Positions 1,921 to 62,566 of a stretch of 64,000 bases of DNA are shown here, piece after piece. Numbering within the stretch: the stretch's first letter is position 1; every line of letters starts with the position of its first letter. The translations under genes were made by a program, and so were the position numbers. Origin of the DNA: Pelagomonas calceolata (taxonomy: Eukaryota; Sar; Pelagophyceae; Pelagomonadales; Pelagomonadaceae); contig CAKKNE010000003.1 of NCBI GenBank assembly GCA_918797485.1, forward strand, positions 3,782,001 to 3,846,000. The letters are read 5' to 3'. The notes under the pieces were generated by a model that saw only the letters and a program-made list of their open reading frames with translations, had not been told where the DNA came from and searched no databases.

Positions 1921-2478
1921 GGTTGCTTGGTGCTACTGCTGGGGCAGCCCTTTTTGGTGCGGCTGTCGGCGCGGCTCGTTGCAACGCGGTGCCGTTCTAC
2001 CTTGCGTGGCGTGCGTCGCGGGTCTGCTGCGTCGGTCCGGGCGCGGCGGGATGCGAGTGCTCGTTTATGTCCGGAGAGCTTGCGTTAAAGTCCAGGCTCT
2101 CGCGCCGAGACGCGGCGGACGCGCTCCGCGGCGATGCAGCTATGCGCGAGCGTGCCTTCGACTGCTCTACGGGTTCTTTGGACGGATGCAAGCTAGCGGC
2201 CGGTAAGACACTAGCAACACTGGCAAAGCGAGTCGGGCGTGGGCGCTGCAGCATAGCAATCGCTGCGGGGAGTTTGTGCCTGCTGTGGCATTGATTCGCG
2301 CCAGAGCGAGCTGCGCAACAGGCTGCGAAACTCTCGCGTTGGGAAGGCTGGCCGCATAGACTATCTCCCAGCGCCGACTCGGGAGGCAGCAGCGCCGCAG
2401 CGATCGACGCCGTCGACGCGCCACCTCACAGGACGTCCTACCGCATTAGTCGCAAGGCGCAGGATCGACAGGACGAGC
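1921..2478. other. Divergent intergenic region with one palindromic motif copy
   Basis: About 560 bases between the EF-hand gene (leftward) and the J-domain gene (rightward). The only structured signal seen is the dispersed motif at 2192-2217. Several short frames read through the region but none has recognisable content. Confidence 0.5.
2192..2217 (+). repeat. Dispersed palindromic motif, copy 1
   Basis: GCTAGCGG, then CCGGTAAGACA, then CTAGCAA. The ends form an inverted repeat (GCTAG/CTAGC). It is a clear member of the intergenic motif family that recurs through the window, and lies between two divergent genes. Confidence 0.7.
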
Positions 2479-3594
2479 ATGGCCCAAGTCTGGTGCGTCT
2501 ACGACGTCCAGGGCGACCGCGACGCCGGCGAAAACGCCTTTGAAGTGTTTTGTAGTGATCCGGATGCCCCAACGCTCGCTGAATTGCAACGCTCGTGCCC
2601 CTTCACGTCCACGGGCGGCGACTGGCGCTGGCGGGCGAAGGTGGCTGATGACGTCTTCGGCTACTGCTGGCGCGACGTCCGGGACGCGCACGAGCCTGTG
2701 GGCGCCGAGCAAAGCGGCGATGCGCTCGTCGTGCGCATGCGGGTGGTCGATGTGTCTCCACAAGCCATCGCGCGGCGCCGGCTGAAACCAGGCAGAATGC
2801 CGCGGGCGCGGCGCGCCGCCAAGGGCTACGCCGATGCTCCGACTGGAGGCGGCCGCGCGACGTGGGAGGAAGCGAGTCGCGCGAACGGCTCAAGAGCGCA
2901 CGTGCCGCCGCCCTCGCAAAGAGCGCCGCCGCCGAAGCCGCCTCCTAGAAAACCTTCACTGGACATGGTCGACCTCGGCGCCGCGCCTGAACCACCAAAA
3001 AAGAATGCCCAGTCCCTCTCGCAAGACACCGTCCAACAGCTCGTGAGGGAGGGCAAGATGCGCTGGGACGACGTGGACCAGCGCTACGTCGCCGTCGAGG
3101 TCGTCGAAGAGGTTCGTATCGGTATCCAGGCCGTGTCTATTGGGAACGAGGACTTGTCCTCGAAGGCTCCCGAGGTGCAGCAGGCCATCCTCGAGCGGAG
3201 GCAGGCCTTACAAGATGCGCAGGAGGAGAAGCGGGCTAGACTAAGGGCGCAGCGGTCCGCCGCCGAGAGCGAGGCCGACGCGCAAATCGCTCTCAAAGCG
3301 CAACTGGATCCTCAGTTAAAGCGGTGGAGCGAGGACCACGGCAAGAAGAAGAACATCCGGGCGCTATTGGCGGGCATGGACCAGGTCATGTGGGAGGGGA
3401 GCGGCTGGAAACCCATCTCGATAGGCGACCTGCTCGAGCCGAAGAAGGTCAAGCGGGCCTACTACAAGGCGTCGCGCTTCGTGCACCCGGACAAGCTCGT
3501 TAATTTATCGATCGAGCAGCGCTTCGTCGGGAAGCGGATCTTCGATGCCTTGTCCCAGGCGTACGCGGAGTTCGAGGAGAGCGGGATGGGGTGA
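2479..3594 (+). CDS. Auxilin-like J-domain protein, possible N-terminal DIX domain
   Basis: 371 residues, ATG at 2479. The last 85 residues form an auxilin/GAK-type J domain: KKNIRALLAGMDQVMW, then a helix with KKVKRAYYKASR, the diagnostic HPD loop (RFVHPDKL) and a final helix with FDALSQAYAEF. In this family the J domain recruits Hsc70 to strip clathrin from vesicles. The N-terminal 90 residues (LAELQRSCPF, DDVFGYCWRDV, VVRMRVVDV) resemble a DIX-type polymerisation domain; this is weaker. A Pro-rich linker and a charged coiled-coil stretch (about residues 225-290) lie between. The gene is intronless. A clathrin light chain gene lies 15 kb away. Confidence 0.8.
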   Translation: MAQVWCVYDVQGDRDAGENAFEVFCSDPDAPTLAELQRSCPFTSTGGDWRWRAKVADDVFGYCWRDVRDAHEPVGAEQSGDALVVRMRVVDVSPQAIARRRLKPGRMPRARRAAKGYADAPTGGGRATWEEASRANGSRAHVPPPSQRAPPPKPPPRKPSLDMVDLGAAPEPPKKNAQSLSQDTVQQLVREGKMRWDDVDQRYVAVEVVEEVRIGIQAVSIGNEDLSSKAPEVQQAILERRQALQDAQEEKRARLRAQRSAAESEADAQIALKAQLDPQLKRWSEDHGKKKNIRALLAGMDQVMWEGSGWKPISIGDLLEPKKVKRAYYKASRFVHPDKLVNLSIEQRFVGKRIFDALSQAYAEFEESGMG

Positions 3595-3620
3595 GTAGGT
3601 GTGTGTTGTTTACTTGAATC

Positions 3621-4757
3621 TTACGCGGCGACGTCCTCGCGCTTCATTCGTGCACCCTCGAGAATCGCGAGGGCACGTATTGTCTCCGGGTGATGATTTC
3701 CGAAGACTCGTCGGCGGGCTCTCACCACATCCTCGAGTATTGTCACGGCCTCTAAAACATCAGCTCGGGACGCGCCCGCGTCGCTGTAGAGGGCCTCCGC
3801 AAAGGCCGCGTGGCAGTTCAGCGTCATTACGTGATTGGACCCGAGCGCCCGCCGGCACTGTGGGATGAGCTTGCCCGCAAATTCCTTCGCTTCGGCGTAT
3901 TGCCCTTGCTGAATTAACGAATGTGCAAGGTTGTTGCCGGTGTGAAGCGTACTTTTGTTTGTCGTTCCAAGTAGTTCCTTGCATCTAGCGTAAACATCAC
4001 GCTCCATCGCGAGAGCCTCGTCTAGTCGCCCGAGCGAGTGGAGACAATTGGCAAAATTGGATCTGGTGACGATAATGGGGTATTCTGATATCCCGAGACG
4101 CCTCTGAGTGGCCAACTGGACCTCAACTATAGCCAGCCGCTCCGCGTGACGTTCCGCTGCCCACAACCCATTCCCGAGCACCGTTAGCGCATTGACTCGA
4201 GCCCAATCCGTCTCCGGCCGGCCCACGTACGTCTTCCAGCAAGCCCACCCGAGCGCGCACCACACGAAGCCGTGGTATCGTTGCTCGCAAAGGCCGCACT
4301 CTTCCCAACGCATCCACCTCTTATCAAACGCCTCGCCGTCCAAGTCTGTCTCCTCGCCCTCGTCACACAAAATCTTTGCTTGCCGCGCCAAGCACGACAC
4401 GTGCGCGACGCCCAGTTCCGGAGACGAAACGCCGTCGCGATCTCCGCACGCACATCCGCGCACGAGGCCTTCTCCCGTGTGCGGATGCACGGCCTCGAGA
4501 CAGATGTAGCATTTTTGCCCTTCGTGTCGTCCGCGGCACGCCTCGACCGCGACCGCGACGGCCTCCTTGTATTTTTTGTCGGCGTAGTATTGCTCCGCGT
4601 TGCCGCCGCGGTGTATTTTTTTGCAGATCTGCTTGTGGCCGCGGCGCCAGTGGTCCATCTGGCAAGTTTTGTTACAATATCTTGTGTGACAGCGTATGCA
4701 TCGCGGCGCGTCGTGGGCCAGTGGGGCGGCGCAGGCGGGGCAGGTTGTGAGGATCAT
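3621..4757 (-). CDS. MYND zinc finger, RING-CH-like and TPR protein
   Basis: 378 residues, ATG at 4757, convergent with the J-domain gene 26 bases away. Order: a MYND finger at about residues 8-45 (CPAC, CIRCHTRYC, C-x3-C and final H/C ligands); a second Cys/His cluster at about 80-170 with CYIC, CAC, HVSC and CGLC, spaced like a RING-CH (RINGv) finger; then from about 180 a set of kinesin-light-chain-type TPR repeats (LGRLDEALAMERDVYARCKELLG, QGQYAEAKEF). MYND and TPR regions bind proteins, and RING-CH fingers are E3 ubiquitin ligases that dock E2 enzymes. A role in ubiquitination is plausible but not shown. No intron is needed. Confidence 0.8.
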   Translation of the reverse strand: MILTTCPACAAPLAHDAPRCIRCHTRYCNKTCQMDHWRRGHKQICKKIHRGGNAEQYYADKKYKEAVAVAVEACRGRHEGQKCYICLEAVHPHTGEGLVRGCACGDRDGVSSPELGVAHVSCLARQAKILCDEGEETDLDGEAFDKRWMRWEECGLCEQRYHGFVWCALGWACWKTYVGRPETDWARVNALTVLGNGLWAAERHAERLAIVEVQLATQRRLGISEYPIIVTRSNFANCLHSLGRLDEALAMERDVYARCKELLGTTNKSTLHTGNNLAHSLIQQGQYAEAKEFAGKLIPQCRRALGSNHVMTLNCHAAFAEALYSDAGASRADVLEAVTILEDVVRARRRVFGNHHPETIRALAILEGARMKREDVAA

Positions 4758-4802
4758 TTTTGTGGCGTGAGGCGTTTGGGGTCGCGCGTCGTGATTTTGT
4801 TT

Positions 4803-4823
4803 CTAGTAGCTTACAACGCTAGC
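4803..4823 (-). repeat. Dispersed palindromic motif, degenerate copy
   Basis: CTAGTAGCTTACAACGCTAGC keeps both CTAG ends and the CTTAC core in the reverse orientation. It lies 46 bases upstream of the MYND gene start. It is diverged, so the call is tentative. Confidence 0.4.
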
Positions 4824-4982
4824 TTGGCAATTTTTCAGAACGCGACGGGGGAGCTCTGAGCGGGTCCTCGGTAAGTTGTTGGTGTGTCCCTATTGCGTGC
4901 TCAGGCTCAGGCTAGTTACGTCGCGGGGTCCCCCGTACCCTCCCGGTCCCCCCGGGCCCGCCCGTCCGGCAGGACTACGCAG

Positions 4983-5003
4983 GCTAGTATGTATCGACGC
5001 TAG
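4983..5003 (-). repeat. Dispersed palindromic motif, degenerate copy
   Basis: GCTAGTATGT, then ATCGACGCTAG. It resembles the copy at 62320 and lies about 70 bases upstream of the ER thioredoxin-like gene. The core is changed, so confidence is modest. Confidence 0.35.
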
Positions 5004-5071
5004 GCCGAGGAGATTTCCTCCGCGTGGAGCATCTCCATAAAAATCCAGCCCACGTGCTCACAATCGCAACG

Positions 5072-5909
5072 ATGAAGGCCGCCGCCCTCCTCCTCGCCCT
5101 CGCGGCGTCGACGCATGCCACCGTGCTCACGCCTGACAACTACGACGACCTCACCCAGGACAAGAGCGTGACCCGCGGCGTCCGCGGCGCGCATGCATGC
5201 ATTTTTGTAGCGCGCGCACGTCCGCGTACCCGCACCGCACCAGGCGCATACGCTGCGCGCGCGCGCGGCGCGAAACCGCGACGCGCGCAAAGACTGCGGA
5301 CCCGCTCGACGCGCGCGTAACTCACACGCCATCGCCGCGACCCGCCACAAAACGCAGGTCTTCATCAAGTTCTTCGCGCCCTGGTGCGGCCACTGCAAGA
5401 AGCTGAAACCCACCTGGGACATACTCATAGACGAGTACAAGGGCCACAAGGACATTTTGGTCGCCGACGTCGACTGCACGGCCGAGGGCAAGCCCCTCTG
5501 CGACGCGAATGGAGTGAAAGGATTCCCGACGCTCAAGTACGGCGACCCGAGCGACCTCCAGGACTACCAAGGTGGGAGAGACGAAAAAGACCTCAAAAAG
5601 TTCGCGTCCGAGAAGCTCGGGCCCCAGTGCGGCGTCAAGAATTTGGACCTCTGCTCCGACGAGAAGAAGGCGCAGATCGCTTCGTTCCAAGCGATGGGTG
5701 CCGAGAAATTGGGCGAATTTATTGGAGAGCAGGAGGCGAAGATCAAGGAGCTCAACGAAAACTTCAGCAAGCAAGTGGAAGACCTCCAGAAGCTCTACGA
5801 GGGCTACATGAAGGACAAGGAGGCCGCCGAGGCCGCGCTCAAGGGCCAGGGGCTGGGCCTCGCCAAGGCCGTGCGCAAGTCGCTCGAGGCCACGACGGAC
5901 GAGCTCTGA
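5072..5909 (+). CDS. ER thioredoxin/PDI-like protein with coiled-coil tail
   Basis: Exons 5072-5167 and 5358-5909, giving 215 residues. The intron (190 bases, donor GTGACC, acceptor ACGCAG) is phase 0 and restores the conserved strand before FFAPWCGHCKKLKPTW. The protein has a signal peptide (MKAAALLLALAASTHA), one thioredoxin fold with the PDI-type WCGHC active site and the cis-Pro strand (GFPTLKYG), then a charged helical tail from about residue 145. It ends in TDEL, which fits a KDEL-like ER-retention signal. PDI family members make and shuffle disulfides in the ER; this one has a single catalytic domain, whereas classical PDI has two. The upstream in-frame ATG at 5024 would bury the signal peptide, so 5072 is preferred. 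Confidence 0.88.
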
Positions 5910-6073
5910 GGGGCGCGGGCGTGCGTGTCCTCCCCTATGCCCTATGACGCGGCGGCGGGCCTAGACCGGGTCCGCGGCCGCCGAGCCCCCCGCCGCCCGG
6001 CGCGGCCCCCGCGACCACGCGCCGCCCGCGTAAGGTGCGACTCGTGACATTGTCTCTTATACTCTAGATCGGC

Positions 6074-8353: not shown

Positions 8354-8897
8354 GTAAGGTGTTGTTGTGTTGCTCGTAGTGCGGCGACGGCGTCTCTGGC
8401 GGCGTCTCTCGTGGTTCGCGACGGCGCGGCCGGCTTTCGCGGCGAGCCCTGTGCACTTCTCGCCTAAATCTAGAGCCTAAATCGGCGCACGAGTCGCCGT
8501 CGTCGTCGGGCCGCGGCGTGGGCGCGGGCGCGGGCTCGTCGTCCTGTGCGCTGATTAGTTGTGCCTCCGACGCCCAAGCGTCCCGCGGGCAAGCTCGGTA
8601 GTCAAATGCGGAGCTAGGCGTACCCTAGAAGTCCGGGGAGCCGTCTCCCGGACCCGTAGTCGTAATAGAGGTGCCGCGCGCGGCGGCCAATAGCGCCGCT
8701 CTCAAGCTTTGAAACCGGTGCAGAGTTTCGCGCGTGTGCTGCACGCGAGAACGCGAGGCGTTTTGTGCACGCTCGCGTGCCTTTCTAAAGGCCAATTGAC
8801 AGAAATGTGAGCAAATTTTGAGTCTGTTTTACGTTTTTCTGAAAAACGCGCGCTAGCGGCCTGTAAGACACTAGCAAGCCAGCTTTTCGTCCCACAC
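8354..8897. other. Intergenic, one motif copy
   Basis: About 540 bases after the C10 gene. It holds the dispersed motif at 8852-8879 and otherwise no gene, RNA or clear repeat that I can support. An unseen 5' exon of the next gene could lie here, since a CACACAG acceptor-like site ends at 8899. Confidence 0.4.
8852..8879 (+). repeat. Dispersed palindromic motif, copy 2
   Basis: GCTAGCGGCC, then TGTAAGACA, then CTAGCAAGC. A near-exact match to copy 1, placed immediately upstream of the open frame of the CXC gene. Confidence 0.7.
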
Positions 8898-11411
8898 AGG
8901 TCGGCCGCGTACGTCTACGGCCACGGAACCAATAATGCTGCTGCTGGTGTTGTTGTTCGAGACGACAAGCCTGATCCATGGAAGCACAAGCGGGAACTGG
9001 AAGCGCAGCGCAAGACGCTCCAGCCGCACGAGCTGGATGGCCTGAACGAGGCGTCGTTCGCGCAACGGCAGGCCTGGAACCCCAAGGGCGGCTCGTACCC
9101 GCCGCTGGACACGTCCGGGTACGGCCCCATCCAAGAAGCTCTCAAACAAAAGGTCGGCGACGCGTACGTCCGCGTGCTGTCGCCCTCCGCGGGCGCCGCG
9201 CTGAAAAAAGTCGGAGCGGCGTTCCGGGAGAGCGACAAGGGCTGGGGCGGACGAGGATACAGCTTGTCCGAAAATCAGGGCCGCCGCGGCATCCCGTTTC
9301 ACCGTGTCGGGACGGGCGAGCTGACGCCGAGCGGCGAGCATTTGCGCGGCTTGGTGTCCCACGAGCCGTTCGACGTCGTCGAGGACGTCGTGCGGACGCT
9401 CGTCGGCGACGAGTTCCTCGACGATAGCCACACGCGCCTCCTGGTGGCGAACCCGACGCGCGGCGGCGTGCTCTCGCAGGGCCCGCACGCCGACGCCGTC
9501 GTCGTCCACAAGCACAAGGTCGAGGAGGAGGAGACGCACGAGCAGCTGCGCTGGCTCTGGATGAGCGCCATGGCCGTCATCTGCTTCGTCGTCAGCTTCG
9601 AGAACGGCAACTACGGGATCCCGCGCGAAGGCCCGCTCTTCGGGATTTTCGCTTGTGTCACCCTCGAGCTCCCGGCCAGCGCGATCTACGCGCTGACGGC
9701 GCTGCTCGCCGGCCAGAAGCCCTTCGGCTTCGTGCGCATCGACGGCGAGATCTACAAGCTGCGCATCTACCACCTGGTCTTCGGCATCAAGGAGCAGCGC
9801 GCGCTGACGGTGGCGTCGGTCCTCGTCCCGCTCGGCGGCGCCGCCGCGGCGATCGCGGCGGCCGACCGGCGCATCGACGCGCTCGCGCGACGCCTCTCCT
9901 GCGACGACGTGCTCACGGTCGCCGAGCTGTTCCCGCTGCGCGTCGCGCCGTGCGTCGTCGGCGCCGTCAGCGGCCTCCTCGGCCTCGGCGGCGGCAGCGT
10001 GCTCTGCTACGGCGGCGCGCCCGCGGGCGACGCCGACGCCCTGGCGGCGGCCGTGGTTTTGCCGGCGGAGGCGAAGAAGCTGCGGCGCGAGAACCGGCGC
10101 GCGGCGGACGCGGCCCGCGAGGCGTTGCGCGACCTCTTCGTGCGATCGGGCGACGCGCGCGGCGCGCGCGCGCTTCTCGGTTTTAGCGGACACGATACGG
10201 CGGCGCACGACGCGGGCGCGAACGCGCTCGCCGATCTCGAGACGCTGGTCGAGCGCGAGGCGCGGCGAGACGCGCGCGCACGCCGTGAAGCGGAACTGTG
10301 CGCCGCGCACATGCGGCAGTTTAGGCCGTCGGATGAGACGCTAGGGCGTTTCCAGATGCCGACGGATGTGTTCGCGGCGCCGTCGGACGCGGCGTTCGGT
10401 GCTGTTCTGCCGCCGCCCCCACCTTTGCCTGCGCGGCACTTTGTTCTGGATGAGACGCGAAGGCGTTTCCAGGTGCCGACGGATGTGTTCGCGGCGCCGT
10501 CGGACGCGGCGTTCGGTGCTGTTTCGCCGCCGCCCCCACCTCTGCCTCGGACGCTAGGTTTCCAGGAGCAGGGCCCGCGCCTCGCTGATTTAATGGACCA
10601 ATTCTTTCCCAAGGGAGGAACGACGTCCGAGCGGCCGCGGGTCGAGCTGCCGCAGCCAACGACCTTCGAGCGGCCGCGGGTCGAGCTGCCGCCGCCACGG
10701 GACGATGAGCGCCGCGCGAAGGCACCGAGGGCGCCGGGGGTGCCGAAGGAGGTGTGTGCCGCGATGGATTCAGCGCTGGGTAGGCTGGAGCGCCGCCTCG
10801 AGACGCCGGATCAACGCGAGGCGCGGCTGGCGCCGGCGCGGGAGCGGTGGCGAGACGCGCGCGACGCCTTGCGCGAGAAGCACGGGTCCTTCTGCCGCTG
10901 CAAGAACTCCAAGTGCCTCAAGAGGTACTGCGAGTGCTTCGAGCGCGGCGTGCTGTGCGGCGACTCGTGCAAGTGCGAGAACTGCGAGAACATTGCGGGC
11001 TCGGCTTCATTGCGGGAGGCGCGCGCTGCGATCGCGGAGCTCCCGCCGTCGCGCGACGGCTGCACCTGCAAGAATAGTCGCTGCCTCAAGCTCTACTGCG
11101 TCTGCTTTAAGGCCGGCAGCAAATGCGTCGCGGCGTGCAAGTGCGTCGACTGCCAGAACGGCCGGCCCGCCGATGCGCCCATCCCCGCGCCGCCGAAGAA
11201 GCGCCGCGCCGCGCCGTCGAAGAAGGCCGCGCCGCCGAAGAAGCGCCAGAGAGTTGACCGCGCAGCCGACGAGACCGCCGACGATGCTGCTGGGGAGGTT
11301 CGAGGAGGCCTACTGCTCAACGCGGCGCGGCTGGCGGCTCTTAGGGAAGAGTACGCGCGCGAGCGCGAGCGGGCCGCCGCGGGGGCGACGCCGTCGCCGC
11401 CGTCGCAGTGA
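8898..11411 (+). CDS. CXC (tesmin/LIN54-type) protein with membrane-like N-terminus; start unresolved
   Basis: A continuous open frame, but the first in-frame ATG is at 9561; the frame reads as coding from about 8961, so a 5' exon or another start is likely missing. The 3' part has two cysteine-rich CXC motifs, CRCKNSKCLKRYCECF at about 10890 and CTCKNSRCLKLYCVCF at about 11060, each followed by CKC-x2-C. This is the DNA-binding CRC domain of LIN54/TSO1 proteins. A basic, NLS-like PKKRR region follows. The 5' part (about 9560-10010) encodes hydrophobic segments (MSAMAVICFVVSF, VVGAVSGLLGLGGG) unlike a transcription factor. Between them are two copies of a 39-residue unit with a polyproline run. 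This may be one odd fusion or two genes. Confidence 0.72.
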   Translation, partial: RSAAYVYGHGTNNAAAGVVVRDDKPDPWKHKRELEAQRKTLQPHELDGLNEASFAQRQAWNPKGGSYPPLDTSGYGPIQEALKQKVGDAYVRVLSPSAGAALKKVGAAFRESDKGWGGRGYSLSENQGRRGIPFHRVGTGELTPSGEHLRGLVSHEPFDVVEDVVRTLVGDEFLDDSHTRLLVANPTRGGVLSQGPHADAVVVHKHKVEEEETHEQLRWLWMSAMAVICFVVSFENGNYGIPREGPLFGIFACVTLELPASAIYALTALLAGQKPFGFVRIDGEIYKLRIYHLVFGIKEQRALTVASVLVPLGGAAAAIAAADRRIDALARRLSCDDVLTVAELFPLRVAPCVVGAVSGLLGLGGGSVLCYGGAPAGDADALAAAVVLPAEAKKLRRENRRAADAAREALRDLFVRSGDARGARALLGFSGHDTAAHDAGANALADLETLVEREARRDARARREAELCAAHMRQFRPSDETLGRFQMPTDVFAAPSDAAFGAVLPPPPPLPARHFVLDETRRRFQVPTDVFAAPSDAAFGAVSPPPPPLPRTLGFQEQGPRLADLMDQFFPKGGTTSERPRVELPQPTTFERPRVELPPPRDDERRAKAPRAPGVPKEVCAAMDSALGRLERRLETPDQREARLAPARERWRDARDALREKHGSFCRCKNSKCLKRYCECFERGVLCGDSCKCENCENIAGSASLREARAAIAELPPSRDGCTCKNSRCLKLYCVCFKAGSKCVAACKCVDCQNGRPADAPIPAPPKKRRAAPSKKAAPPKKRQRVDRAADETADDAAGEVRGGLLLNAARLAALREEYARERERAAAGATPSPPSQ
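10332..10555 (+). repeat. Two tandem 117-base coding repeats
   Basis: Two in-frame copies, offset 117 bases (39 residues), each with the core PTDVFAAPSDAAFGAV followed by a run of prolines. They differ at only a few positions, which suggests a recent duplication inside the CXC gene. Confidence 0.8.
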
Positions 11412-11658
11412 CGGGCGTCGCGGCGGGCCCGCGGACTATCGCCTGATATGAACGTCGCGGATCCGAGACGTGGGGCGCGCGTCGTGCGCGTCGACCGAAT
11501 CACGATTCCATAACTTGTTGTTCTTTTGGAAGTTGTGCTACGCCGGAAGATCACGCAGTCCTGCTTCCTAGAATCTCAGAGCACGCTAGCTCGCGCTCTC
11601 GTTAAAGTTTAAAACTCAGCAGGCGCCCGCTCGATTTACGAGCGCGCGGTACAAAAGA

Positions 11659-14600
11659 ATGACCGCCCTGGCAATGCCGCACGTCGACAGCGTCCAGAGC
11701 TCAACGCCCACAGCTTGGCGCGCCGCGCGCGGCCGCTCAGCGCGCGGTTTCGGCCAAAAGCCGACTGAGTTTGAAATGTGCACTGCGGAGCGCGCGGGAG
11801 CGCCAGGCGGCCGCGCGGCCCGGCCACGCTGCCGCCACCCGCCCGCCCACACACTCACAGCCTCGCCGCCCCCGCAAAACCGCGCGCACGGAGGACAGCA
11901 CACGCGCCGGCGCACGCCGCGACTCGGAAACTCTGAGCTGGCGCCGGCCGGCCGCCGCGGCGCGCGGACGCCGTGGCCCCGCCGCCGCCGCGGTCCCCGC
12001 CACGCGCACTACGACGAGAGGTCGCACCCACGCCCACCACACGCCGCGACTCAGAATCCCGACGAAACCGCCGACCGCAGGCCCGCGAACCTGTCGAGGG
12101 ACCAGTCCCGCGTCTCCGAGGACGACGACGACATCCACGTCATCAAGCGCAACGGCAAGAAGGAGGTCGTGCGCTACGACAAGATCACGAGCCGCATCAA
12201 AAAGTTATGCTATGGTTTGGACTCCAAGTACATCAAGCCGAACGTCCTGACCCAAAAGGTCATCCAGGGCGTCTACGACGGCGTCACGACCCACGAGCTC
12301 GACGAGCTCGCCGCCCAGACGGCGGCCTACATGGCCACGCAGCACCCGGACTTTTCGCGTTTGGCGGCGAGGATCTCGGTCTCGAACCTCCACAAGTCCA
12401 CCGACAAGGTCTTCAGCGATGTGGTGGAGAAGCTCCACAAGCACGTCCACCCGAAGACGAAGAAGCCCGCGTCGCTCATCGCCGACGACGTCTACGAGGT
12501 CATCATGTGCGTCTCGCGGCGTCCTCGCATCGCGCCCAAAATCACGTCTCCCGTCACGCGACACCGCCGCAGGTCGAACAAGGACAAGATCAACGGGGCG
12601 ATCGTCTACGACCGCGACTTTGAATACGACTACTTCGGCTTCAAGACCCTCGAGAGAAGCTACTTGATGCGCTGCGACGGCGAGATCGCGGAACGGCCCC
12701 AGCACATGATCATGCGCGTGGCGATCGGTATTCACGGGAGTGACGTCGACGCGGCCATCGAGACCTACGAGCTCATGTCCCAGAAGTACTTCACGCACGC
12801 GACGCCGACGCTCTTCAACGCCGGGACGCCGAGACCCCAATTATCTTCCTGTTTCTTATTAGCGATGAAGGAGGACAGCATCGAGGGGATTTACGACACT
12901 TTGAAGAGGTGTGCCTGCATCTCGAAGTACGCCGGCGGCATCGGCCTGTCCGTGCACAACATCCGGGCCACGGATTCTTATATTCGCGGTTCGAACGGTA
13001 CGTCCAACGGCATCGTGCCGATGCTCCGCGTTTACAATGACACTGCGAGATATGTGGACCAGGGCGGCGGCAAGAGGAAAGGGTCGTTCGCCATCTACTT
13101 GGAGCCCTGGCACGCCGACATCGAGACGTTCTTGGATTTGAAGAAGAACCACGGCAACGAGTTGGAACGGGCCCGGGATTTATTTTACGGCCTTTGGATT
13201 CCCGACCTGTTCATGCGTAGAGTGGAGGCGAACGAGCAGTGGTCGCTCATGTGTCCGAATGAGTGCCCGGGCTTGGCGGATTGCCACGGGAAGGAATTTG
13301 AGGAGCTCTATGAAAAATATGAAAAGGAGGGCCGGGCGCGCAAGCAGATCCCGGCTCAACAGTTGTGGTTCGCGATCCTCGATTCGCAAGTCGAGACGGG
13401 CACGCCCTACATGCTCTACAAGGACGCTTGTAATGGGAAGAGCAACCAGAAGCATTTGGGGACGATCAAATCCAGCAACTTGTGCACGGAGATCGTCGAG
13501 TACACGTCGCCCGACGAAGTCGCCGTCTGCAACCTGGCCTCGATCAACCTCACGGCCATGGTCACTGATGATCAGTTCGACTTCAAGCAACTCCGTAAAA
13601 TTGCCAACGTGGTTACTCGTAATTTGAACAAAGTGATTGACGTGAACTACTACCCCGTCCAGGAGGCCGAGAACAGCAACATGCGCCACCGCCCCATCGG
13701 CATCGGCGTGCAAGGTCTCGCGGATGCGTTGGTGAAGCTGCGCCTCCCGTACGAGGGCGACGCCGCGCGCCAGCTCAACAAGGACATCTTCGAGACGATC
13801 TATTACGGCGCGGTGCGGTGTCCTATGCACTTCACGATGACGACGCGACTCGTCTCCAGGAATGATGGAACCGCGTCGTGACTCGATGTCGAACGCAGGC
13901 GCCATGGAGGCCTCGATCCAGCTCGCCAAGGAGCAGGGCACCTACGAGACGTACGAAGGGTCTCCGACGTCCCAAGGCTTGTTACAACCTGATCTGTGGA
14001 ACGTGACGCCCAGCAGCCGCTGGGACTGGGCCCAATTACGTAGAGATCTGGCCGAGCACGGGTGCAGGAACTCGCTCCTCCTCGCCCCGATGCCCACGGC
14101 GTCGACGGCCCAGATCCTCGGGAACAACGAGTCGTTTGAACCTTTTACGAGCAACATGTTCACCAGACGTGTCTTGGCCGGCGAGTTCGCCGTGGTCAAC
14201 AAGTACCTGCTGAACGACTTGATTGCGCGGGGCCTCTGGACGCCGGAGGTCCGCAACCAGATCATCGCGGACAAGGGAAGCGTCCAGGCCGTCGCGGGCA
14301 TTCCCGACGACCTTAAGGCCCTCTACAAGACGACGTGGGAGATCAAGCAGAAGTGCGTGCTCGACATGTCGGCGGATCGGGGCGCGTTCATCTGCCAGTC
14401 GCAGTCCCTCAATTTACATATTGCGGAGCCGTCCCCGGGCAAGCTCACGTCCATGCACTTCTACGCCTGGAAGAAGGGCCTCAAGACGGGCATGTACTAC
14501 CTGCGGACGCGCCCGAAGGCCGACGCCATCGCCTTCACGGTGGACCAGGCCATGGCCGCGAAGTCGCGCGGCGAGAACGCGCTCAAGCCCGTGAACACGG

Positions 14601-16178: not shown

Positions 16179-16204
16179 TTGCTAGTGTCTTACAGGCCGC
16201 TAGC
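16179..16204 (-). repeat. Dispersed palindromic motif, copy 3
   Basis: TTGCTAGTGTCTTAC, then AGGCCGCTAGC: the reverse orientation of copy 2 and nearly identical to it. It pairs with the opposite-facing copy 28 bases downstream. Confidence 0.7.
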
Positions 16205-16232: not shown

Positions 16233-16260
16233 GCTAGCGTCCAGTAAGACACTAGCAAGC
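16233..16260 (+). repeat. Dispersed palindromic motif, copy 4
   Basis: GCTAGCGTCCA, then GTAAGACACTAGCAAGC. With copy 3 it forms a long imperfect inverted repeat upstream of the SDR gene. Confidence 0.7.
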
Positions 16261-39527: not shown

Positions 39528-39547
39528 CGGCATGTAACACACTAGCA
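39523..39547 (+). repeat. Dispersed palindromic motif, copy 5
   Basis: GCTAGCGGCATGTAACACACTAGCA. The core differs (AACACA for AAGACA). It contains the stop codon of the nucleoside hydrolase gene and lies 115 bases upstream of the next start. Confidence 0.65.
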
Positions 39548-39661
39548 CCATCACATTTTTCTAGACGCCGCTGCGCCGCCTATAAGCCAAAGGCTGCCCA
39601 AAAATAATGCCATGACCCCTTCGCATCGCTAACTTAGTCCAACGCGGCCGAATTCGCATCG

Positions 39662-48092: not shown

Positions 48093-48454
48093 GGCTGCGT
48101 GCGCTCGCGGCGGCTGGCGTCCAGGTGTCCTATGCGCGCGGCGCGGTGCGTCGGCGGCGTCCCAAGTGTCCTGTGCGCGTGCGCGGCGCGTCGGCGGCGG
48201 GGGCTTCCAAGAGGTCCAAGAGGGCAGGGCTCCTATATGACTGCGCGGCAGAAGCTGCGCTGCAGGGCTGGGCGGAGAGGTCCCGCAGGCCTTGTTATTC
48301 TTGCAAAATGGCTACGGCAGCGTCCAAGCGGCGGCGTCTGGCTCGAGCCGGCGGCTTGCTAGTGTCTTACAGCGCTAGTTAAAGTGCCTTAACGAAGATG
48401 GCGACGGCGTAATATAATAAGCGACGCCGTTCGAGGGTAGCGACGGCGTCCCGC
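48093..48454. other. Intergenic, one motif copy
   Basis: About 360 bases between the kinase start and the 3' end of the small membrane protein gene. It contains the motif at 48356 and no supported gene. Confidence 0.4.
48356..48379 (-). repeat. Dispersed palindromic motif, copy 6
   Basis: TTGCTAGTGTCTTACAGCGCTAG. It keeps the core exactly but is two bases shorter. It lies 5' of the kinase gene. Confidence 0.65.
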
Positions 48455-48847
48455 TCAGCGGCGCTTCTTCTCCGGCGCCTCCTGGACGGCGACGGCCCCG
48501 GCGAGCGAGAGCGCGAGCATGAGGCCCTCCGGGACGTAGTGCATCGGGTACTTGAGCGGGAGATTCGGCGTGAGGTAGCCGAATCTCGCGTTCCAGGGGT
48601 AGAGGATGCCGATACCGACGGACGCCGCCAGCGCGGCCTTGGCCGCGACGGCCGTCTCAACGTTCATCATCAGGAAGACCTCGCAGAAGATGGTCACGGC
48701 GTGGCCGCGGATCCAGAACTCCATCTCCGGCGTCGACGCGATGTCCCAGTGGTCCGTGACCATGCCGCCGGGATTGAGGAGCATCATGACCCCATAGACA
48801 CCGAAGATGGCGCACGACGCCTTGACGTAGGTCGCCGCGAAGCCCAT
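48455..48847 (-). CDS. Small membrane protein, four predicted helices, unknown
   Basis: 130 residues from ATG 48847; the open frame runs further up without an ATG. Hydrophobic helices at about residues 8-25 (ASCAIFGVYGVMMLL), 45-65 (AVTIFCEVFLMMNV), 68-85 and 108-122. A conserved-looking turn, NPGGMVTDHWDI, and PEMEFWIRGHAV lie between the first two. I do not recognise a named family. There is no signal peptide beyond the first helix. The C-terminus ends EKKRR, which could be an ER-type basic tail. Confidence 0.65.
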   Translation of the reverse strand: MGFAATYVKASCAIFGVYGVMMLLNPGGMVTDHWDIASTPEMEFWIRGHAVTIFCEVFLMMNVETAVAAKAALAASVGIGILYPWNARFGYLTPNLPLKYPMHYVPEGLMLALSLAGAVAVQEAPEKKRR

Positions 48848-49157
48848 AGTTGCGTCCGGGTGCGGCTTGCGTGCAAAGGCAGCGATTGATGCGCGGCACC
48901 GATCTGTTCTCTCGTTCCTCAAGGGGGGCTAAGTTTGCCCCCCATGCGTTCCTGTCGCGTGCAGCTAGCTGCTGTAAAGACACTAGCAAGGCCAGACACT
49001 GTCATGCCCGCCGTTACTTGTGTCGGTCGCCCCTGGGAGCGCTCTTGATTAGTATTAGCCTAGTATACCCATCAGAAAGCCGCCGGCCTGGTTGTCCTTG
49101 CCCGTCTTGCCATGTGCCGCCGTCGACCGATTGCCAAATATAGTACAACACTCATAC
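48848..49157. other. Intergenic, one motif copy
   Basis: About 310 bases; the motif at 48964 is the only signal recognised. Confidence 0.4.
48964..48990 (+). repeat. Dispersed palindromic motif, copy 7
   Basis: GCTAGCTGCT, then GTAAAGACACTAGCAAG; one base is inserted in the core. It lies 117 bases upstream of the small membrane protein start. Confidence 0.65.
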
Positions 49158-51320: not shown

Positions 51321-51834
51321 TGTTATTGGAGCTGTTATGCGTGCCGCGCTGGCGGCGTCTGAGCAGTTCTTTGAGCAATGCGCGCTGGCGTCGCGTCGGC
51401 GTCGCGTGTGTGCTGCTCGTTCAGCGGTCTGGATAATGTAATATATTGCGACAGCGCTCGAGAAATGCAAGAGCTACTGCGGTATTGAATGAATTCGATA
51501 GTTTCTCAGTTTTGAGGACGTGTGCGCGTGATGCGCGGCCGTCGTCGACGATGCCAAGGCAAAGCTAGTATCGATACTACGCTAGCAAAATCGCGCGAAG
51601 CCGACGCTTCGAGCAGGCGATGGACTCCTCCAGATTCGACTGACTCCTCCTCGGCTGGCTTGCTGCTCCTTTGGTAAAGGTCTCACATCTCGCCAACGAG
51701 GATAAAAAACGAGCTGTCCTACACCCTCGCGGCCGCATAGCTGGATTCAAGGGTCGGCAGTGATCATAGACTTGCCAAAGTTCGCCGCGGGCAAACAACC
51801 ACTGCAAAAAACGCATCGATAAGCGACTCCAGCC
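51321..51834. other. Divergent intergenic region with a degenerate motif
   Basis: About 510 bases between the helicase and pyruvate kinase starts. A degenerate copy of the dispersed motif is at 51564-51586; nothing else was recognised. Confidence 0.4.
51564..51586 (-). repeat. Dispersed palindromic motif, degenerate copy
   Basis: GCTAGT, ATCGATACTAC, GCTAGC. The ends and spacing are kept but the core is different. Confidence 0.35.
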
Positions 51835-53322
51835 ATGCTGCGCTCACCCCTGCTGCGAGCGGCCGCCGCCTCGCGCATTGCCGAGCGAGCCGCGACGCGC
51901 GTCACCACGAGACAAGCGTCGTTAACAAAGTTAGTGGCCACGATCGGCCCCGCGTCGGAAGAGGCCGAGCCGCTCCAGAAGTGCGTTACGGCTGGCATGC
52001 ACGTCATGCGGTTGAATTTTAGTCATGCCACGCCCGAGGAGTTCTTTTTGAGAGTGAACAACCTGGCCGCGTCGGAAGGCGGTGACTACGTCGCCAAGTT
52101 ACTGGATACGCGCGGCCCCGAGGTGCGGCTCGGCGGCCTCGCGATCTGCAAAGAAACGGACAATCGCAAGGCGAAAGTCTTGCTCGAGCAGGGCAATGAA
52201 CTGAAATTAACCACGGATCCGGCGTACGACGGCGCCGGCGACGCCCAGACGATGTACGTGAATTATGAAAGGATCGCGGCCAAGGTCAAGGTCGGCGACC
52301 AGGTGTTGTTAGATGACGGGTTGGTCACGCTCGACGTCACCGCGACGGACGGCAGCACGACGGTGACCACCAAAATAGCCAACACGAACGAAATTGGCGA
52401 GAGGAAGGGCGTGAATCTGCCGGGCGTGGCCCTAGATCTACCCGCGCTCAGTGCGAAGGACGAGAAGGACGTGGCCTTCGGCATCGAGAACGGCATCGAT
52501 GTGGTGGCGGCCTCCTTTGTCAGAGACGGGGCCGGTGTCGACGCCATCAGACAATTTATTGATAAAGAAGTAGCAAAACATCCGTCCGTGTACCCCGACG
52601 GCGACACGGTCCACATTTGTAGCAAAATAGAGTCGTTGGACGCGTTGCAGAACATCGACGACATCATCGAGAAGAGCGACGGGATCATGGTCGCGCGCGG
52701 CGACTTGGGGGTCGAGGTCCCGCTCGCCCAGATCGCCACGTGGCAGAAGACCGTCGTCGCCAAGTGCCGAGAGGCGGGCAAGCCCGTGGTGGTCGCGACG
52801 CAGATGCTCGAGTCGATGCAGAAGAACCCGCGGCCGACGCGCGCGGAGGTTGCGGACGTGACCAATGCCGCTCTGGACCTGGCCGACGCCGTCATGCTTT
52901 CAGGGGAGTCTGCAAATGGGGACTACCCGGATCTGGCTATCAGGACGCAGCAGGATATCCTCGAGGCGGCCGAGGCGTGGGACGACGAGCTCTATGAACC
53001 TGATTTAGATGAGTTATCACCAGAGTATGCTTTAGCGAGGGCTTGTGTCGAGGCGCAACGAGTGTCAGATGCTGATTCGATCGTGGTCATCGACACGGAG
53101 CGGGGCGACATGACGCGGCGCGTCGCTGCCCTCGCTCCGGACGTGCCGGTCATTTCATTGGTGGAGTCGATGCGCGTCGGGCGCCAGCTCAACATGTCGC
53201 GGGGCGTCGCGCCGCAGTGCGTCGACGATCTGGGGTTGTCGAGCGACGCGGCGGCGCAGTACGCTTCTGGTACCGTCGTTGTGTACAAATCGGACGGCGT
53301 GTCGCTGCACGAGAAGCCGTAA
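51835..53322 (+). CDS. PK: Pyruvate kinase
   Basis: 495 residues, ATG 51835. It transfers phosphate from phosphoenolpyruvate to ADP, the last step of glycolysis. Motifs in order: KLVATIGPAS, GMHVMRLNFSHA, LLDTRGPEVR, the B-domain, KDVAFGIENGIDVVAASFVR, the catalytic SDGIMVARGDLGVEVP, VVATQMLESM and DAVMLSGES. The C-domain is short and complete, which is normal for many protist isozymes. The first 28 residues (MLRSPLLRAAAASRIAERAATR) are Arg/Ala/Ser-rich without acids and fit a mitochondrial or plastid presequence. Intronless. Confidence 0.96.
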   Translation: MLRSPLLRAAAASRIAERAATRVTTRQASLTKLVATIGPASEEAEPLQKCVTAGMHVMRLNFSHATPEEFFLRVNNLAASEGGDYVAKLLDTRGPEVRLGGLAICKETDNRKAKVLLEQGNELKLTTDPAYDGAGDAQTMYVNYERIAAKVKVGDQVLLDDGLVTLDVTATDGSTTVTTKIANTNEIGERKGVNLPGVALDLPALSAKDEKDVAFGIENGIDVVAASFVRDGAGVDAIRQFIDKEVAKHPSVYPDGDTVHICSKIESLDALQNIDDIIEKSDGIMVARGDLGVEVPLAQIATWQKTVVAKCREAGKPVVVATQMLESMQKNPRPTRAEVADVTNAALDLADAVMLSGESANGDYPDLAIRTQQDILEAAEAWDDELYEPDLDELSPEYALARACVEAQRVSDADSIVVIDTERGDMTRRVAALAPDVPVISLVESMRVGRQLNMSRGVAPQCVDDLGLSSDAAAQYASGTVVVYKSDGVSLHEKP

Positions 53323-54476: not shown

Positions 54477-56000
54477 TAAAATCGTAGTCTACGCGACGAC
54501 TGCGTCTTGAGGGATAGTTAAGCGGGCCCCCCTATACAAAGAAGAGCCAAACCGAGCTAGCGTATATCGACACACTAGTAAATTTAAAGATACGCCTCGA
54601 TAGCGTCAAAAGAAGGGCCCAAATTCAGAATACATCCTAGTCGTTCGGCGCGACCAAAGATTTCAAACTAGCGGCCCGGGAACATACCCTCGCGCCTCCC
54701 GGAAGGCACCGCCCGCGACATTCCCGGATGAGTCTTACGGCTCGCCAAATTACACCAGCGATTGATGGCGCCTTCTACCGTCCAAATGGGACATTATATC
54801 AACTCCAGCCCAGTTTTCATACATAATCGACGGAACCGGAGCCGACGGCCCGCGCTCGGAGGGCGGGAGAAGAGTTTTACTAGACAACTCCCGAGTTTAT
54901 GTTCGTTTCCATCCGTTTGTTAGTGGTAGAGTCCATCCAGCCCGCCTCAACATTTACTGAGCCCAGTCTCTTGATCCGTACGAGCCGCGGGATTCGGCGA
55001 CTTTGGTACCGCGCATTTATATACAAACGGGTAAATCAGTAGAACCCGCGAGTATCAGCGACGCAACCATCCAGATGGACCGTAACGCCGTTGTTCTATT
55101 CACAATCGACTGACTTGCCCGTTCTCCGCGGACGACGGTGTGTACGCGGGGCACTGAATTGGCCCCAGACCGGTGAGTTGTGAAATAAATTCGCGTTTCA
55201 GGCGCTTCGGTTCTAGGACGGTCCATCCATTTGGGCTGGACGGCTACCACATTGCTCCGAGACCCCAAGATGCTCCGCGCGGCTCGGCCATCCCGAGAGC
55301 CCACTATCTCTTTCATTTTGGCACAACACCTAGTCCTGCGGCCATCAGCGCGTGTACCTTCACCATGGACCATGACGCGATCATTTATTCCATGACCGAC
55401 GGACTTCCGCGAGGTCCAGATCAAGATGTTCACGTCCCGAGCGTTGGCAGTCCAAAGTACCCTTCTCGTGGTGTAGATGTCATATACTTGTAATTGACTA
55501 TCGCTGGGGTAGTATGGGGTCCAACGAGACCGCTACGGCGACTACTGGAGGCCCTCGGGTAATTGACGTTTTTTACGGGAACGGGGCGCCATCGGGTCCA
55601 AATTATTTACTTTTTTCGGATGTATATCGGCTCGCAGACTCCCTCCGGGATAGGTCTGGGGTCGGTTAGTCGCCTACACCGCAAGCGCAAGCGCTTGGGG
55701 CTCCCCAGAGAGCTCTGGATCCAAAACTTTGGGGGATCATGGTGGAGATCTGTGGGCAGTTGAGCACCTGTCCCGATATGTCTATACCGATGGAAGCCTT
55801 GGCGCATGCGGTGTAGACCACCACCCACGTCTAGTAACGACCTAGGCGACCCCGGGGAGACCTCAGGACAACGAATCGACAGGATTCCACCGACACGGCC
55901 GTCATGCTGTGACCGTCAATATCGCGAGTTAAAAAAATTAATTTTTTCGCCCCCCAGTAAGTGTCCCATTGATCTCTTTGGACCAGTAGCGAACTGAAGG
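54477..56000. other. Compositionally distinct, gene-free island
   Basis: About 1.5 kb with GC near 45-50 % by eye, against over 60 % on both sides. No frame beyond about 138 codons and no recognisable protein, RNA or repeat apart from one degenerate motif. It looks almost random in base order. Confidence 0.6.
54555..54579 (+). repeat. Dispersed palindromic motif, degenerate copy
   Basis: GCTAGCGTATATCGACACACTAGTA matches the motif ends and the ACACTAG side but lacks GTAAG. It lies inside the low-GC island. Confidence 0.35.
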
Positions 56001-56035: not shown

Positions 56036-56061
56036 TTGCTAGTGTCTTACGAGACGCTAGC
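56036..56061 (-). repeat. Dispersed palindromic motif, copy 8
   Basis: TTGCTAGTGTCTTACGAG, then ACGCTAGC. Core exact. It lies 75 bases before the fucosyltransferase ATG. Confidence 0.7.
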
Positions 56062-56135: not shown

Positions 56136-57488
56136 ATGCGCAACAGAGTCGCCGCGGCGGCGGCCATCGTTCTCGCAATCGTCCTCCTCCGCCGCCAGCG
56201 CAGCCGGACCATTACAGCACACCGGCGGGACCTGGCGCATGTCAAATTCGAGGTCCATCTCCTGGAAAAGCAGCTCGAGCTCGCGGGGCTCGAGGCCGAC
56301 GCATCGCGCGCCCGCCACGAGCGGGACCTCCGGCAGGCGGCCGTCGACGCAGCACAAGAGCTGTCGAGCGCGCCCGCGGCGGCCGCGCAACCGCCCGCGG
56401 CGCCAGCGGCGCGGGCGCCGCCGCCGCCGGTGGCGCCCGCGCCGCCGCCGCCGCGTCCACCAGCGACGCCGGCGGCGCCCGCGCCGCCGCCCGCGACACC
56501 ACGGCCACCACCAGCAACGGGCCCGCTGACCTACCTGCGGGACCCCGCGTCGAATGCCCCGCGCCGCCGCATCACGGTCGTCGTCTACAACAAAATTAGG
56601 GGCTACCTCGACTGGCTCCGGCCGGACTTCGTGAACGACGCCCGCACAAAGTGCTCGACGGAGTGCGTTTTCACGGACCGACGGACGGCGCACGACGGCC
56701 TATTGTTCCACGCGAAAACTCATTCCGCACGAGACTTTCCCCGCGGCAAGAAGTCCGCGAAGTATCTACTGGTAAGTCTAGAACAGGACAAGTACGCGCC
56801 ACTACTGCGAAATCCGAACTACGTCTCGCGTTTCGACTACGTCATGACCTACAACCTCGATTCGCACCTGCCGATGATCACGGTGCACCCGCACTGGAAC
56901 GCTTCCGTGTACTTCGCGGCGCAAGGTGTACCCTGGGCGCAGAAGAAGAATGCGGTTGCGGCATTTGTGTCGAATTGTAGGAATGCCGGCGCGGAGCAGC
57001 GGCTGAAATTGCTCGAGGAACTCGGCAAGCACTACGAGGTCCATTCTTATGGAAGATGCTTACATAATCGGGACGAACCGCCGCTCAAAAAGGGCGAAAG
57101 CCGCGGCGAAGCCAAAAGGCGTCTATTGGCGTCGTACAAATTCTCATTAGCGTTCGAAAATGCCGTCGTCGGCGATTATGTGTCCGAGAAGGTCTACGAC
57201 GCGTTGCTGGCGGGTTCTCTACCGTTGTATAGGGGTGCAAAAAGAGTCGACGACCTGCTGCCGTCTCCGAAATCTGTGGTCAAATTCAGTGATTTCCAAG
57301 ACGACGCGCGGAAGCTCGCGGGCCATTTGGAGTACCTCGCTTCCAATGAACAGGCGTACGAGGAGTACTTCGCGTGGAAGCGGACTGGTGATATGGCGGC
57401 CTTCGACCGGGTCCTGGACATGACGGCTTATAAATATACGGCGCTGTGTCGAGTGTGCGCGCGGCTCGCGCAAGATCTACCTGTGTAA
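56136..57488 (+). CDS. GT10 alpha-1,3-fucosyltransferase-like protein
   Basis: 450 residues, ATG 56136. A type II membrane anchor (VAAAAAIVLAIVLL) is followed by a helical stem and a long Ala/Pro linker to about residue 130. The C-terminal half has the GT10 acceptor/donor signature: YKFSLAFENAVVGDYVSEKVYDALLAGSLPLYRG, close to the canonical F-E-N...D-Y-V-T-E-K pattern, and upstream FVSNCRNAGAEQRLKLLEEL. It would transfer fucose from GDP-fucose to glycans in the Golgi. No intron is needed. It is convergent with the next gene, 18 bases apart. Confidence 0.87.
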   Translation: MRNRVAAAAAIVLAIVLLRRQRSRTITAHRRDLAHVKFEVHLLEKQLELAGLEADASRARHERDLRQAAVDAAQELSSAPAAAAQPPAAPAARAPPPPVAPAPPPPRPPATPAAPAPPPATPRPPPATGPLTYLRDPASNAPRRRITVVVYNKIRGYLDWLRPDFVNDARTKCSTECVFTDRRTAHDGLLFHAKTHSARDFPRGKKSAKYLLVSLEQDKYAPLLRNPNYVSRFDYVMTYNLDSHLPMITVHPHWNASVYFAAQGVPWAQKKNAVAAFVSNCRNAGAEQRLKLLEELGKHYEVHSYGRCLHNRDEPPLKKGESRGEAKRRLLASYKFSLAFENAVVGDYVSEKVYDALLAGSLPLYRGAKRVDDLLPSPKSVVKFSDFQDDARKLAGHLEYLASNEQAYEEYFAWKRTGDMAAFDRVLDMTAYKYTALCRVCARLAQDLPV

Positions 57489-60746: not shown

Positions 60747-61220
60747 GCCTAAGGCTTGCTAGCGTTATATAGCCATGCGGAAGTGGTCTAGCGGCGCGTT
60801 TATCGACTTCCCGCTTAAAATCGCAGCAGCCGTTAGTGCGGGTTTTGCGGCTAAATCGTAAGTCCCCCCAGAGTCGGACACCGGCCGGAGTACCCCTGGA
60901 CCAACACGGAAGAGCGTGGGCAGCCCTTTTAGTGCGGCAACGCCCAGGCTCGCGCTCGTGTGACGCGCCGACTCCGACGGTGTCGCAGGTATGCTGCCCA
61001 TTTTGGAGCAGCCGCGAGTATGATGCCGGTTCATATATCTATTCGCCCCGACGGTACCTGCCGGCCGGGTCCGGGCCCGGGAAAGCCGCCGAAACGCCCT
61101 CGGCGACGGGCAGCCGACGGCACGGGTCGTCTCTTGGCCCCAATCTACCCCCAGACCCAGTTCTGGCGCCAACGAGGCGCAAGATATACGCCACCGAGGA
61201 GAAAGCACACACACAATACG
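60747..61220. other. Intergenic, partial motif, nothing else recognised
   Basis: About 470 bases. A partial dispersed motif (TTGCTAGCGTTATAT) is at about 60756. A tRNA-like start near 60779 was examined and rejected. Confidence 0.35.
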
Positions 61221-62195
61221 TTAAGAGGCCGGCGGCGCCCCGACAAAAAAGCCGCTCCGCCGCACCGGCGGGGCCACGCGCATGGTAGGCCGCTCCAGCA
61301 AAGGCGGGGGGCCCACATGGATCCCCCGTCGCCGATGCAGATGCCTATGACGATGGTGGTGCCGCGCCGGCGTGTTTGAAAAGAAGTCCAGCACGTCGAC
61401 CACCGACGGGCCCCTCATATCATTACTGGAAGGCCGCGCCAGATCATTAAACGTATGGGCCATCGTTTTATGTAAACACGCCGTCGTATTTGCTCTACAA
61501 CTCACACCGACGCGGCACGTCGCGTGCGTGCTCTCCACCACATTGTATGAAGCGCATCTATTCACGCGGAGCCACCGCTCGTAGACGCCGAAAAAATGAA
61601 CACATTCATCTGACCTCTCATCTATGTTACAGCAGCACTTGGCACCGCTACAACAACCAGTAACCTTGACCACGCCGTCCTTCAACCCGTGGTGCATGGT
61701 TATCGGCGTCGGTCGCGTCGTGTTCAGGTGCGTTTGGTGGCCGCCCCACGGCGAAATGCCGTCAAATAGATGGGCGGCTTTCGAGACCATATACCCACCG
61801 TTCGAGAAGCCAGCCCCAAACACGCGGTCCGCTCCTGTTCTATCTCGTACGTCTTCGACGAGCTTCTGGAGGAAGCCCACGTCGTCCAAATTCTGCTTTG
61901 CGGCGTCGCCGCAGCAGGCCCCGCCGTTCCACGACTTGTGATGACCATAAGGTGCGGCCGCGGCCCAGCCCCGGGACTGGACTAGTTTCGCCGTGCGCGC
62001 CCAGGCCCTTAATGGCGTGCCGCCGAAGCCGTGAATGAGGACTACCACTACCGGCGCGTGGCCACAAACGCCGTGGGCCCGTGGTCTCCATAAATGGTAG
62101 CGCCGCACGCCTAAGTGCAGAGCTTCGACGCAGTTGTGGTCGGTGTCCTGCGCGCGGGCCGCCGCGACGAGGGCTAGCAGGCTGAGATTGCGCAT
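61221..62195 (-). CDS. PHB-depolymerase/feruloyl-esterase-type secreted hydrolase
   Basis: 324 residues, ATG 62195, signal peptide MRNLSLLALVAAARAQ. Alpha/beta-hydrolase features: the oxyanion strand VVVVLIHGFGG, the family-typical SWNGGACCG loop and DDVGFLQKLVEDV, then the nucleophile elbow GFSNGGYM (Ser). The Asp is in HHGLKDGVV and the likely His in HKTMAHTFND. Such esterases cut polyhydroxyalkanoate oligomers or feruloyl esters, outside the cell or in vacuoles. The last 70 residues (HHHRHRHLHRRR and on) look unlike the family, so a 3' intron or earlier end is possible. Confidence 0.8.
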   Translation of the reverse strand: MRNLSLLALVAAARAQDTDHNCVEALHLGVRRYHLWRPRAHGVCGHAPVVVVLIHGFGGTPLRAWARTAKLVQSRGWAAAAPYGHHKSWNGGACCGDAAKQNLDDVGFLQKLVEDVRDRTGADRVFGAGFSNGGYMVSKAAHLFDGISPWGGHQTHLNTTRPTPITMHHGLKDGVVKVTGCCSGAKCCCNIDERSDECVHFFGVYERWLRVNRCASYNVVESTHATCRVGVSCRANTTACLHKTMAHTFNDLARPSSNDMRGPSVVDVLDFFSNTPARHHHRHRHLHRRRGIHVGPPPLLERPTMRVAPPVRRSGFFVGAPPAS

Positions 62196-62566
62196 GTCTC
62201 GCGCTCGGTCGCGTCGAAGGCGTGGGGAGGCCAGAGCAAGGGTTCCGCAGCTGCTCTTCCTAGGCTCTGCCGAGCTCTAAAGCCCCAAATGAGGCTGCCC
62301 AAGGCCAAAAACCACAAGGTTGCTAGTATGTTACCGGACGCTAGCATCGCTTTGCAGCACGAAACAAAAAGAGCAGGAAGCGCGGCCGTGATCGCCGCAA
62401 ATACACGCGGGAGGGCCGACCGTACGCACGTTGCCGCTGTGCTCAAAAAGAGCGACGAGTTTGCGTCGACTAGCAAATCACTGCACGCTGCACTGCGCTG
62501 CAGCGGGCGATACCGCGGCGGAACGCCGGCGACGCGACGTAGACACAACAGGACCACCAGTGAACC
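62196..62566. other. Divergent intergenic region, one motif copy
   Basis: About 370 bases between the esterase and NOL12-like starts. The motif at 62320 is the only signal recognised. Confidence 0.4.
62320..62345 (-). repeat. Dispersed palindromic motif, copy 9
   Basis: TTGCTAGTATGTTACCGG, then ACGCTAGC. The ends are exact and the core differs at two positions. Confidence 0.6.

Follow-up and report, generated by a model that had tools for sequence, protein, structure and literature searches.

What is marked by a short palindromic sequence that recurs between the genes of the abundant open-ocean alga Pelagomonas calceolata? The question was raised by a 64-kb stretch of its genome (contig CAKKNE010000003.1, positions 3,782,001 to 3,846,000; hereafter the window), in which a dispersed intergenic motif, nearly always situated 5' of a gene, had been predicted from the letters alone. 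The position of this element relative to genes and its conservation in a second lineage suggest that it is the putative site of one widely used promoter factor of the general regulatory factor type, a reading to which we assign a probability of about 0.7.

The element was 26 nucleotides (nt) long, running from GCTAGC through CTAGCAA, and followed the pattern GCTAGCG-N4-GTAAGACACTAGCAA. The original prediction had described a 25-base palindrome. This length did not hold; the palindrome did, in an imperfect form whose arms, GCTAGCG on the left and, reversed, GCTAGTG on the right, flank an asymmetric GTAAGA. Across 86 collected copies, conservation stopped sharply at both edges and the arm positions were nearly invariant. 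The spacer was four bases long in 49 of these copies and comprised 0, 2, 3 or 5 bases in the others. Start-to-start spacing of CTAG pairs in promoters peaked at 16, 17 and 18 bases, with 8, 11 and 18 cases, respectively, and 0 to 4 cases at other spacings. This peak fits contact at both arms with little play in the distance separating them. Pieces of the element also formed the top over-represented word family in unbiased word counts of promoter gaps.

The window was searched for a 15-base core with at most two mismatches, and Markov shuffles served as control. Nine matches were present in the window and none in the shuffles. The nine clear copies predicted were all recovered at their positions, four of them (16179, 48356, 56036 and 62320) on the minus strand. 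The assembly of P. calceolata RCC100 comprises six nuclear contigs with a total of 32.4 Mb as well as a plastid and a mitochondrion, with 63% GC and 16,667 genes (PMC9481584). A genome-wide search, as had been proposed with the motif, revealed strong enrichment: the exact core occurred 1,104 times, 551 and 553 times on the two strands, and its reversed control was absent. Allowing up to two mismatches, 3,466 occurrences were counted for the core and eight for the reversed control. Past approximately five to seven mismatches, no excess of decayed copies over shuffles was observed, and the viral contigs scanned held no exact match to the element.

Some copies and related sequences deviated from this pattern. 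In about 170 copies, the CACTA arm was followed immediately by a module of eight bases, GGGATGCC in some and its reverse complement GGCATCCC in others; examples are located on assembly contigs at C1:3605215 and C2:631155 and in the region L061:1562-1587. A rare sister pattern, GCTAGTNNCGRTACTACGCTAGC, has the CTAG arms of the element and a different core, GTACTACG, and is represented in the window by positions 51564-51588. As a second CTAG-armed class it was rejected, with only eight copies in the genome. All eight sampled copies of a variant with two extra bases before CTAGCAA (L001-L008) were situated in head-to-head gaps, a number too small to conclude from.

Placement relative to predicted genes

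Gene prediction relied on codon usage rather than on RNA-supported annotation: a simple scorer of open reading frames (ORFs) was trained on the long ORFs of the window, so that starts are approximate. The window was combined with twelve 10-kb stretches picked independently of the motif (120 kb) to give a sample of 184 kb. This sample held 30 copies, two of them at stretch ends. None was located in the 128 kb of predicted coding sequence, a distribution far from an even spread over genes and gaps. Of the 70 gaps holding a 5' end, 26 were occupied, namely 11 of the 28 head-to-head and 15 of the 42 tandem ones; the 29 tail-to-tail gaps were all empty. The element was present in roughly a third of the sampled promoters. 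In the twelve stretches alone, 18 copies were detected, with occupancies of 8/19 head-to-head, 8/26 tandem and 0/20 tail-to-tail gaps; extrapolated to the genome, this count corresponds to approximately 4,900 copies with a wide error. At the 37 distinct places surveyed around exact copies, the copy was never in a gene and nearly always adjoined one or two predicted gene starts. The window agreed with the prediction of an intergenic element lying mostly ahead of start codons. The single exception to intergenic placement was at 39523-39548, where the copy and the stop codon of ORF 38436-39527 overlap. Of the nine clear copies, that at 8852 was approximately 700 bases from its nearest downstream predicted start, and the other eight were approximately 75-280 bases from a predicted start.

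Tail-to-tail gaps were short (median 56 bp), and their emptiness is therefore modest evidence by itself; the emptiness of coding sequence is not limited in this way. Orientation was random, with 15 copies in tandem gaps pointing with the gene and 13 opposite to it (p = 0.85), an independence that concerns placement and not function. In 18 divergent gaps, the element was located centrally, at a relative position of 0.46 (standard deviation (SD) 0.10; uniform placement gives 0.29), and none of 100,000 uniform draws was as tight. The distance from the element edge to the start codon had a median of 183 bases with a 5-95% range of 84-280, and was constrained in tandem gaps as well (median 203). 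These positions bear on a further rival, in which the element is a CTCF-like or origin-complex-like site with an architectural, insulator or replication-origin role that happens to be retained in gaps. Architectural factors are frequently found at promoters, and a long motif of two half-sites that is independent of orientation and central in gaps would suit such a site. However, tail-to-tail gaps, though short, were all empty, the distance to the start codon was constrained even in tandem gaps, and one copy per approximately 7 kb is dense for origins. An architectural or origin site was considered very unlikely.

Sense ATGs upstream of starts were depleted to approximately position -160 and reached background beyond, and the element peaked at -200 to -240. 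Counted outward from the element, the depletion began after approximately 20 bases. This suggests that transcription starts from just outside the element to approximately 120 bases off, on one or both sides. Start sites are probably situated between its outer edge and approximately 120 bases away, which places the element just outside the inferred 5' untranslated regions (UTRs). The same depletion lends itself to the most serious rival, a core promoter element at or beside the start site that is initiator-like and read by the basal machinery. As the depletion sets in only approximately 20 bases off the element edge, starts may lie at or very near it, and a core element could plausibly be present in one third of promoters. 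Such elements are normally directional, however, whereas orientation in tandem gaps was random, a single copy was positioned midway between two divergent genes and the distance to the ATG was broad. On balance, a core promoter element is an unlikely explanation.

A splice or leader signal had been another candidate, and the element does contain GTAAG. More generally, an RNA-level signal could be a 5' splice site, a spliced-leader acceptor or a UTR hairpin; by sequence inspection, the arms on the CTAGTGTCTTAC strand could form a stem containing a single G-U wobble, with a loop of varying length. The splice and leader readings were rejected because the strand relative to the gene was random (15:13) and copies were located midway between divergent genes, outside most inferred UTRs. 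The random strand also argues against a hairpin; its arms were nearly invariant, and the outer G/C pair had no compensatory pattern. Taken together, a role at the RNA level is hardly credible. An introner element was rejected as well, with no copies in coding DNA and a random strand.

Orthologous promoters in a second lineage

When prokaryote genomes were scanned for the element, a single contig was returned, from a metagenome bin named Spirochaeta sp. MED672. This contig was collinear with contig 6 of P. calceolata at 83-94% identity and is therefore a misbinned piece of a Pelagomonas-like lineage. Sites were chosen by the copies of this second lineage, so that their presence in P. calceolata was not pre-selected. 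In nine of nine copies checked, the orthologous P. calceolata promoter held the element. At six aligned sites, 140 of 154 element positions (91%) were identical, versus 380 of 720 positions (53%) in the 60-base flanks (p = 6e-21, with positions taken as independent). One site that was in place showed a two-base spacer indel between the lineages, indicating that spacers of 2 and 4 bases are interchangeable there. One module-bearing site was also kept in the second lineage.

Several observations weigh against a factor-binding site. Spacer length among copies ranged from 0 to 5 bases. Outside the spacer, the pattern holds approximately 34 bits, and approximately 14 bits are enough to pick 4,300 sites from the genome, which places the element above typical factor sites. 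Such excess specificity is unusual; it would follow from a large interface and equally from copying. Two of the 37 places around exact copies (L016 and L023) had no predicted gene 5' end beside the element. In three of the nine orthologous promoters, the element had moved or, in one case, was inverted (L051:5362 on the plus strand versus L052 on the minus strand), which would not necessarily be expected of a simple conserved site.

These points bear on a tiny mobile element, also named in the original prediction, i.e. a very small element or a remnant such as a solo terminal repeat that prefers promoters. It would suit copies that are more uniform than a binding site needs (34 versus 14 bits), orthologous promoters with a moved or inverted copy and the subfamily of approximately 170 copies with the extra GGGATGCC module in either orientation. 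Conservation in place beyond that of the flanks argues against it, however: six of nine copies were in place between lineages whose flanks were half diverged. Target-site duplications were not found (mean match 1.71 versus 1.55, SD 0.13, with shuffled partners), conservation ended sharply at both edges, and there was neither an excess of decayed copies nor any copy in coding or tail-to-tail DNA. No gene-coding parent turned up, although no systematic search for one was made. A mobile element was judged highly improbable on these grounds. In a related alternative, active copying or short inversion at the CTAG arms would keep the element uniform, and a self-propagating module would have spread through thousands of promoters and been co-opted as their commonest promoter signal. 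Such a process would account for the 34-bit uniformity, the moved and inverted orthologous copies and the occurrence of the GGGATGCC module in both orientations; it is quite unlikely in our assessment.

The MED672 bin, deposited as bacterial, contained several contigs of a Pelagomonas-like alga (C141, C182, C146, C169, C170 and C18), a contamination worth flagging. Common to both lineages were dispersed short repeats of approximately 60-160 bases, present in P. calceolata in dozens of copies at approximately 75-97% identity. They were located at L051:299-455, at L057:1432-1545, 2251-2400 and 5890-5998, and at L060:3-113, and are possibly introner-like.

A putative promoter factor and known systems

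A palindromic transcription-factor site had been among the candidates of the original prediction, and it is this reading that promoter-only placement, random orientation, centrality in divergent gaps and conservation across lineages back. From these features we infer protein binding, dimeric contact and an effect on chromatin or initiation. One sequence-specific nuclear protein would bind the element as promoter-proximal double-stranded DNA. It would contact the inner GTAAGA as well as both CTAG arms (inverted GCTAGYG, with 16-18 bp between arm starts), and would probably be dimeric or multi-domain, with a flexible middle part. In approximately one third of genes, the bound protein may mark the promoter centre and open it, and the site could serve one or both flanking genes in either orientation, as do those of Reb1, Abf1 or ZNF143. 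A regulon was rejected: Pfam searches with 30 genes beside copies returned mixed functions without a shared theme, and many of these genes had no matches.

In sequence, the element is unrelated to the sites of the yeast factors Reb1 and Abf1, whose motifs are shorter. It resembles them in being spread over the promoters of many genes without common function, divergent pairs among them, and in its indifference to orientation. Reb1 and Abf1 sites have this distribution and organise the nucleosomes on both sides whichever way the motif points (PMC8163841). A long motif in promoters of diverse genes is shared with human ZNF143, whose 29-base motif occurs in bidirectionally transcribed promoters (PMC11118474); the site of Ronin (THAP11) is described as a hyperconserved promoter sequence (PMC5695914). 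Both differ from the element in sequence, and neither is a palindrome of two CTAG arms separated by a variable distance. As no kinship in sequence was shown, the element is placed under this kind of site and not under any family.

Among stramenopiles, the oomycete INR, FPR and DPEP elements were likewise found by over-representation in promoters. They are core elements of a fraction of genes and are situated at the start site, with INR+FPR spanning 16-19 nt; in the stramenopile examined from outside the oomycetes, INR alone seemed to occur (PMC3599244). Their position at the start site sets them apart from the element, as does, by our reading, their sequence. Pelagophyte introners are also dispersed in high copy number, and introns of P. 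calceolata show an introner-like length peak at approximately 210 bp (PMC9481584). Introners are introns inside genes, whereas the element is 26 nt long, restricted to promoters and random in strand.

A search of open-access full text yielded nothing to contradict the claim that the element lacks a described match. This search found no description of a pelagophyte promoter element, with subscription papers and preprints largely outside its reach. Among the matches listed for the literal element sequence in open-access text, none concerned algal promoters and none contained a 12-base core string. If the reading is confirmed, a large share of the promoters of this alga would carry one and the same word, which would assist promoter annotation and the design of transgenes and serve as a bait for the main promoter factor of a stramenopile lineage. 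The excess specificity would also make it testable how a site of this length is kept uniform across thousands of places.

Individual copies and neighbouring features in the window

The exact consensus GCTAGCGGCCGGTAAGACACTAGCAA was present at 2192-2217 (+), in the middle of the gap between the divergent genes 892-1920 (-) and 2479-3594 (+). Further exact copies were located at 8852-8877 (+), with gene 9561-11411 (+) predicted to start approximately 700 bases downstream, and at 56036-56061 (-), approximately 75 bases upstream of gene 56136-57488 (+). Two more formed an inverted pair at 16179-16204 (-) and 16233-16258 (+), upstream of gene 16431-17798 (+). The copy at 48356-48379 (-) had a spacer of two bases and an exact 15-base core, approximately 265 bases upstream of gene 47262-48092 (-). 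Two mismatches each were counted at 39523-39548 (+), the copy sharing bases with the stop codon of ORF 38436-39527 (+) and situated approximately 114 bases upstream of gene 39662-41341 (+), and at 62320-62345 (-), mid-gap between the divergent genes 61221-62195 (-) and 62567-63172 (+). The copy at 48964-48989 (+) held three mismatches with an internal one-base shift and was approximately 117 bases upstream of gene 48455-48847 (-).

About six degenerate copies had been predicted in addition, of which those at 4800, 11565, 51564 and 54556 were judged plausible. The first, GCTAGCGTTGTAAGCTACTAGAAA at 4800-4823 (-), had a spacer of two bases and lay approximately 57 bases upstream of gene 3621-4757 (-). 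Five mismatches were counted in the weak, possible copy at 11565-11590 (-), approximately 80 bases upstream of gene 11659-13881 (+), and in the weak copy GCTAGCGTATATCGACACACTAGTAA at 54556-54581 (+), in the long gap ahead of gene 56136-57488 (+). The related variant GCTAGTATCGATACTACGCTAGCAA at 51564-51588 (+) has the same two CTAG arms and was situated mid-gap between the divergent genes 49158-51320 (-) and 51835-53322 (+).

Gene 9561-11411 (+), downstream of the exact copy at 8852, encodes a predicted tesmin/TSO1-like CXC-domain protein of a DNA-binding regulator family. An open frame of 4,052 amino acids at 18985-31143 (+) held 12 DUF285 matches and long internal repeats of approximately 75 and 570 bases. 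For the Aureococcus giant virus, DUF285 genes preceded by a conserved motif have been mentioned (PMC5917014). An inverted-repeat element was located at 31935-32682, with 84-base arms that are 92% complementary and 503 bases between them; it looks like a non-coding transposable element. A further partial copy of it was present 18 kb away, at 50073-50160.

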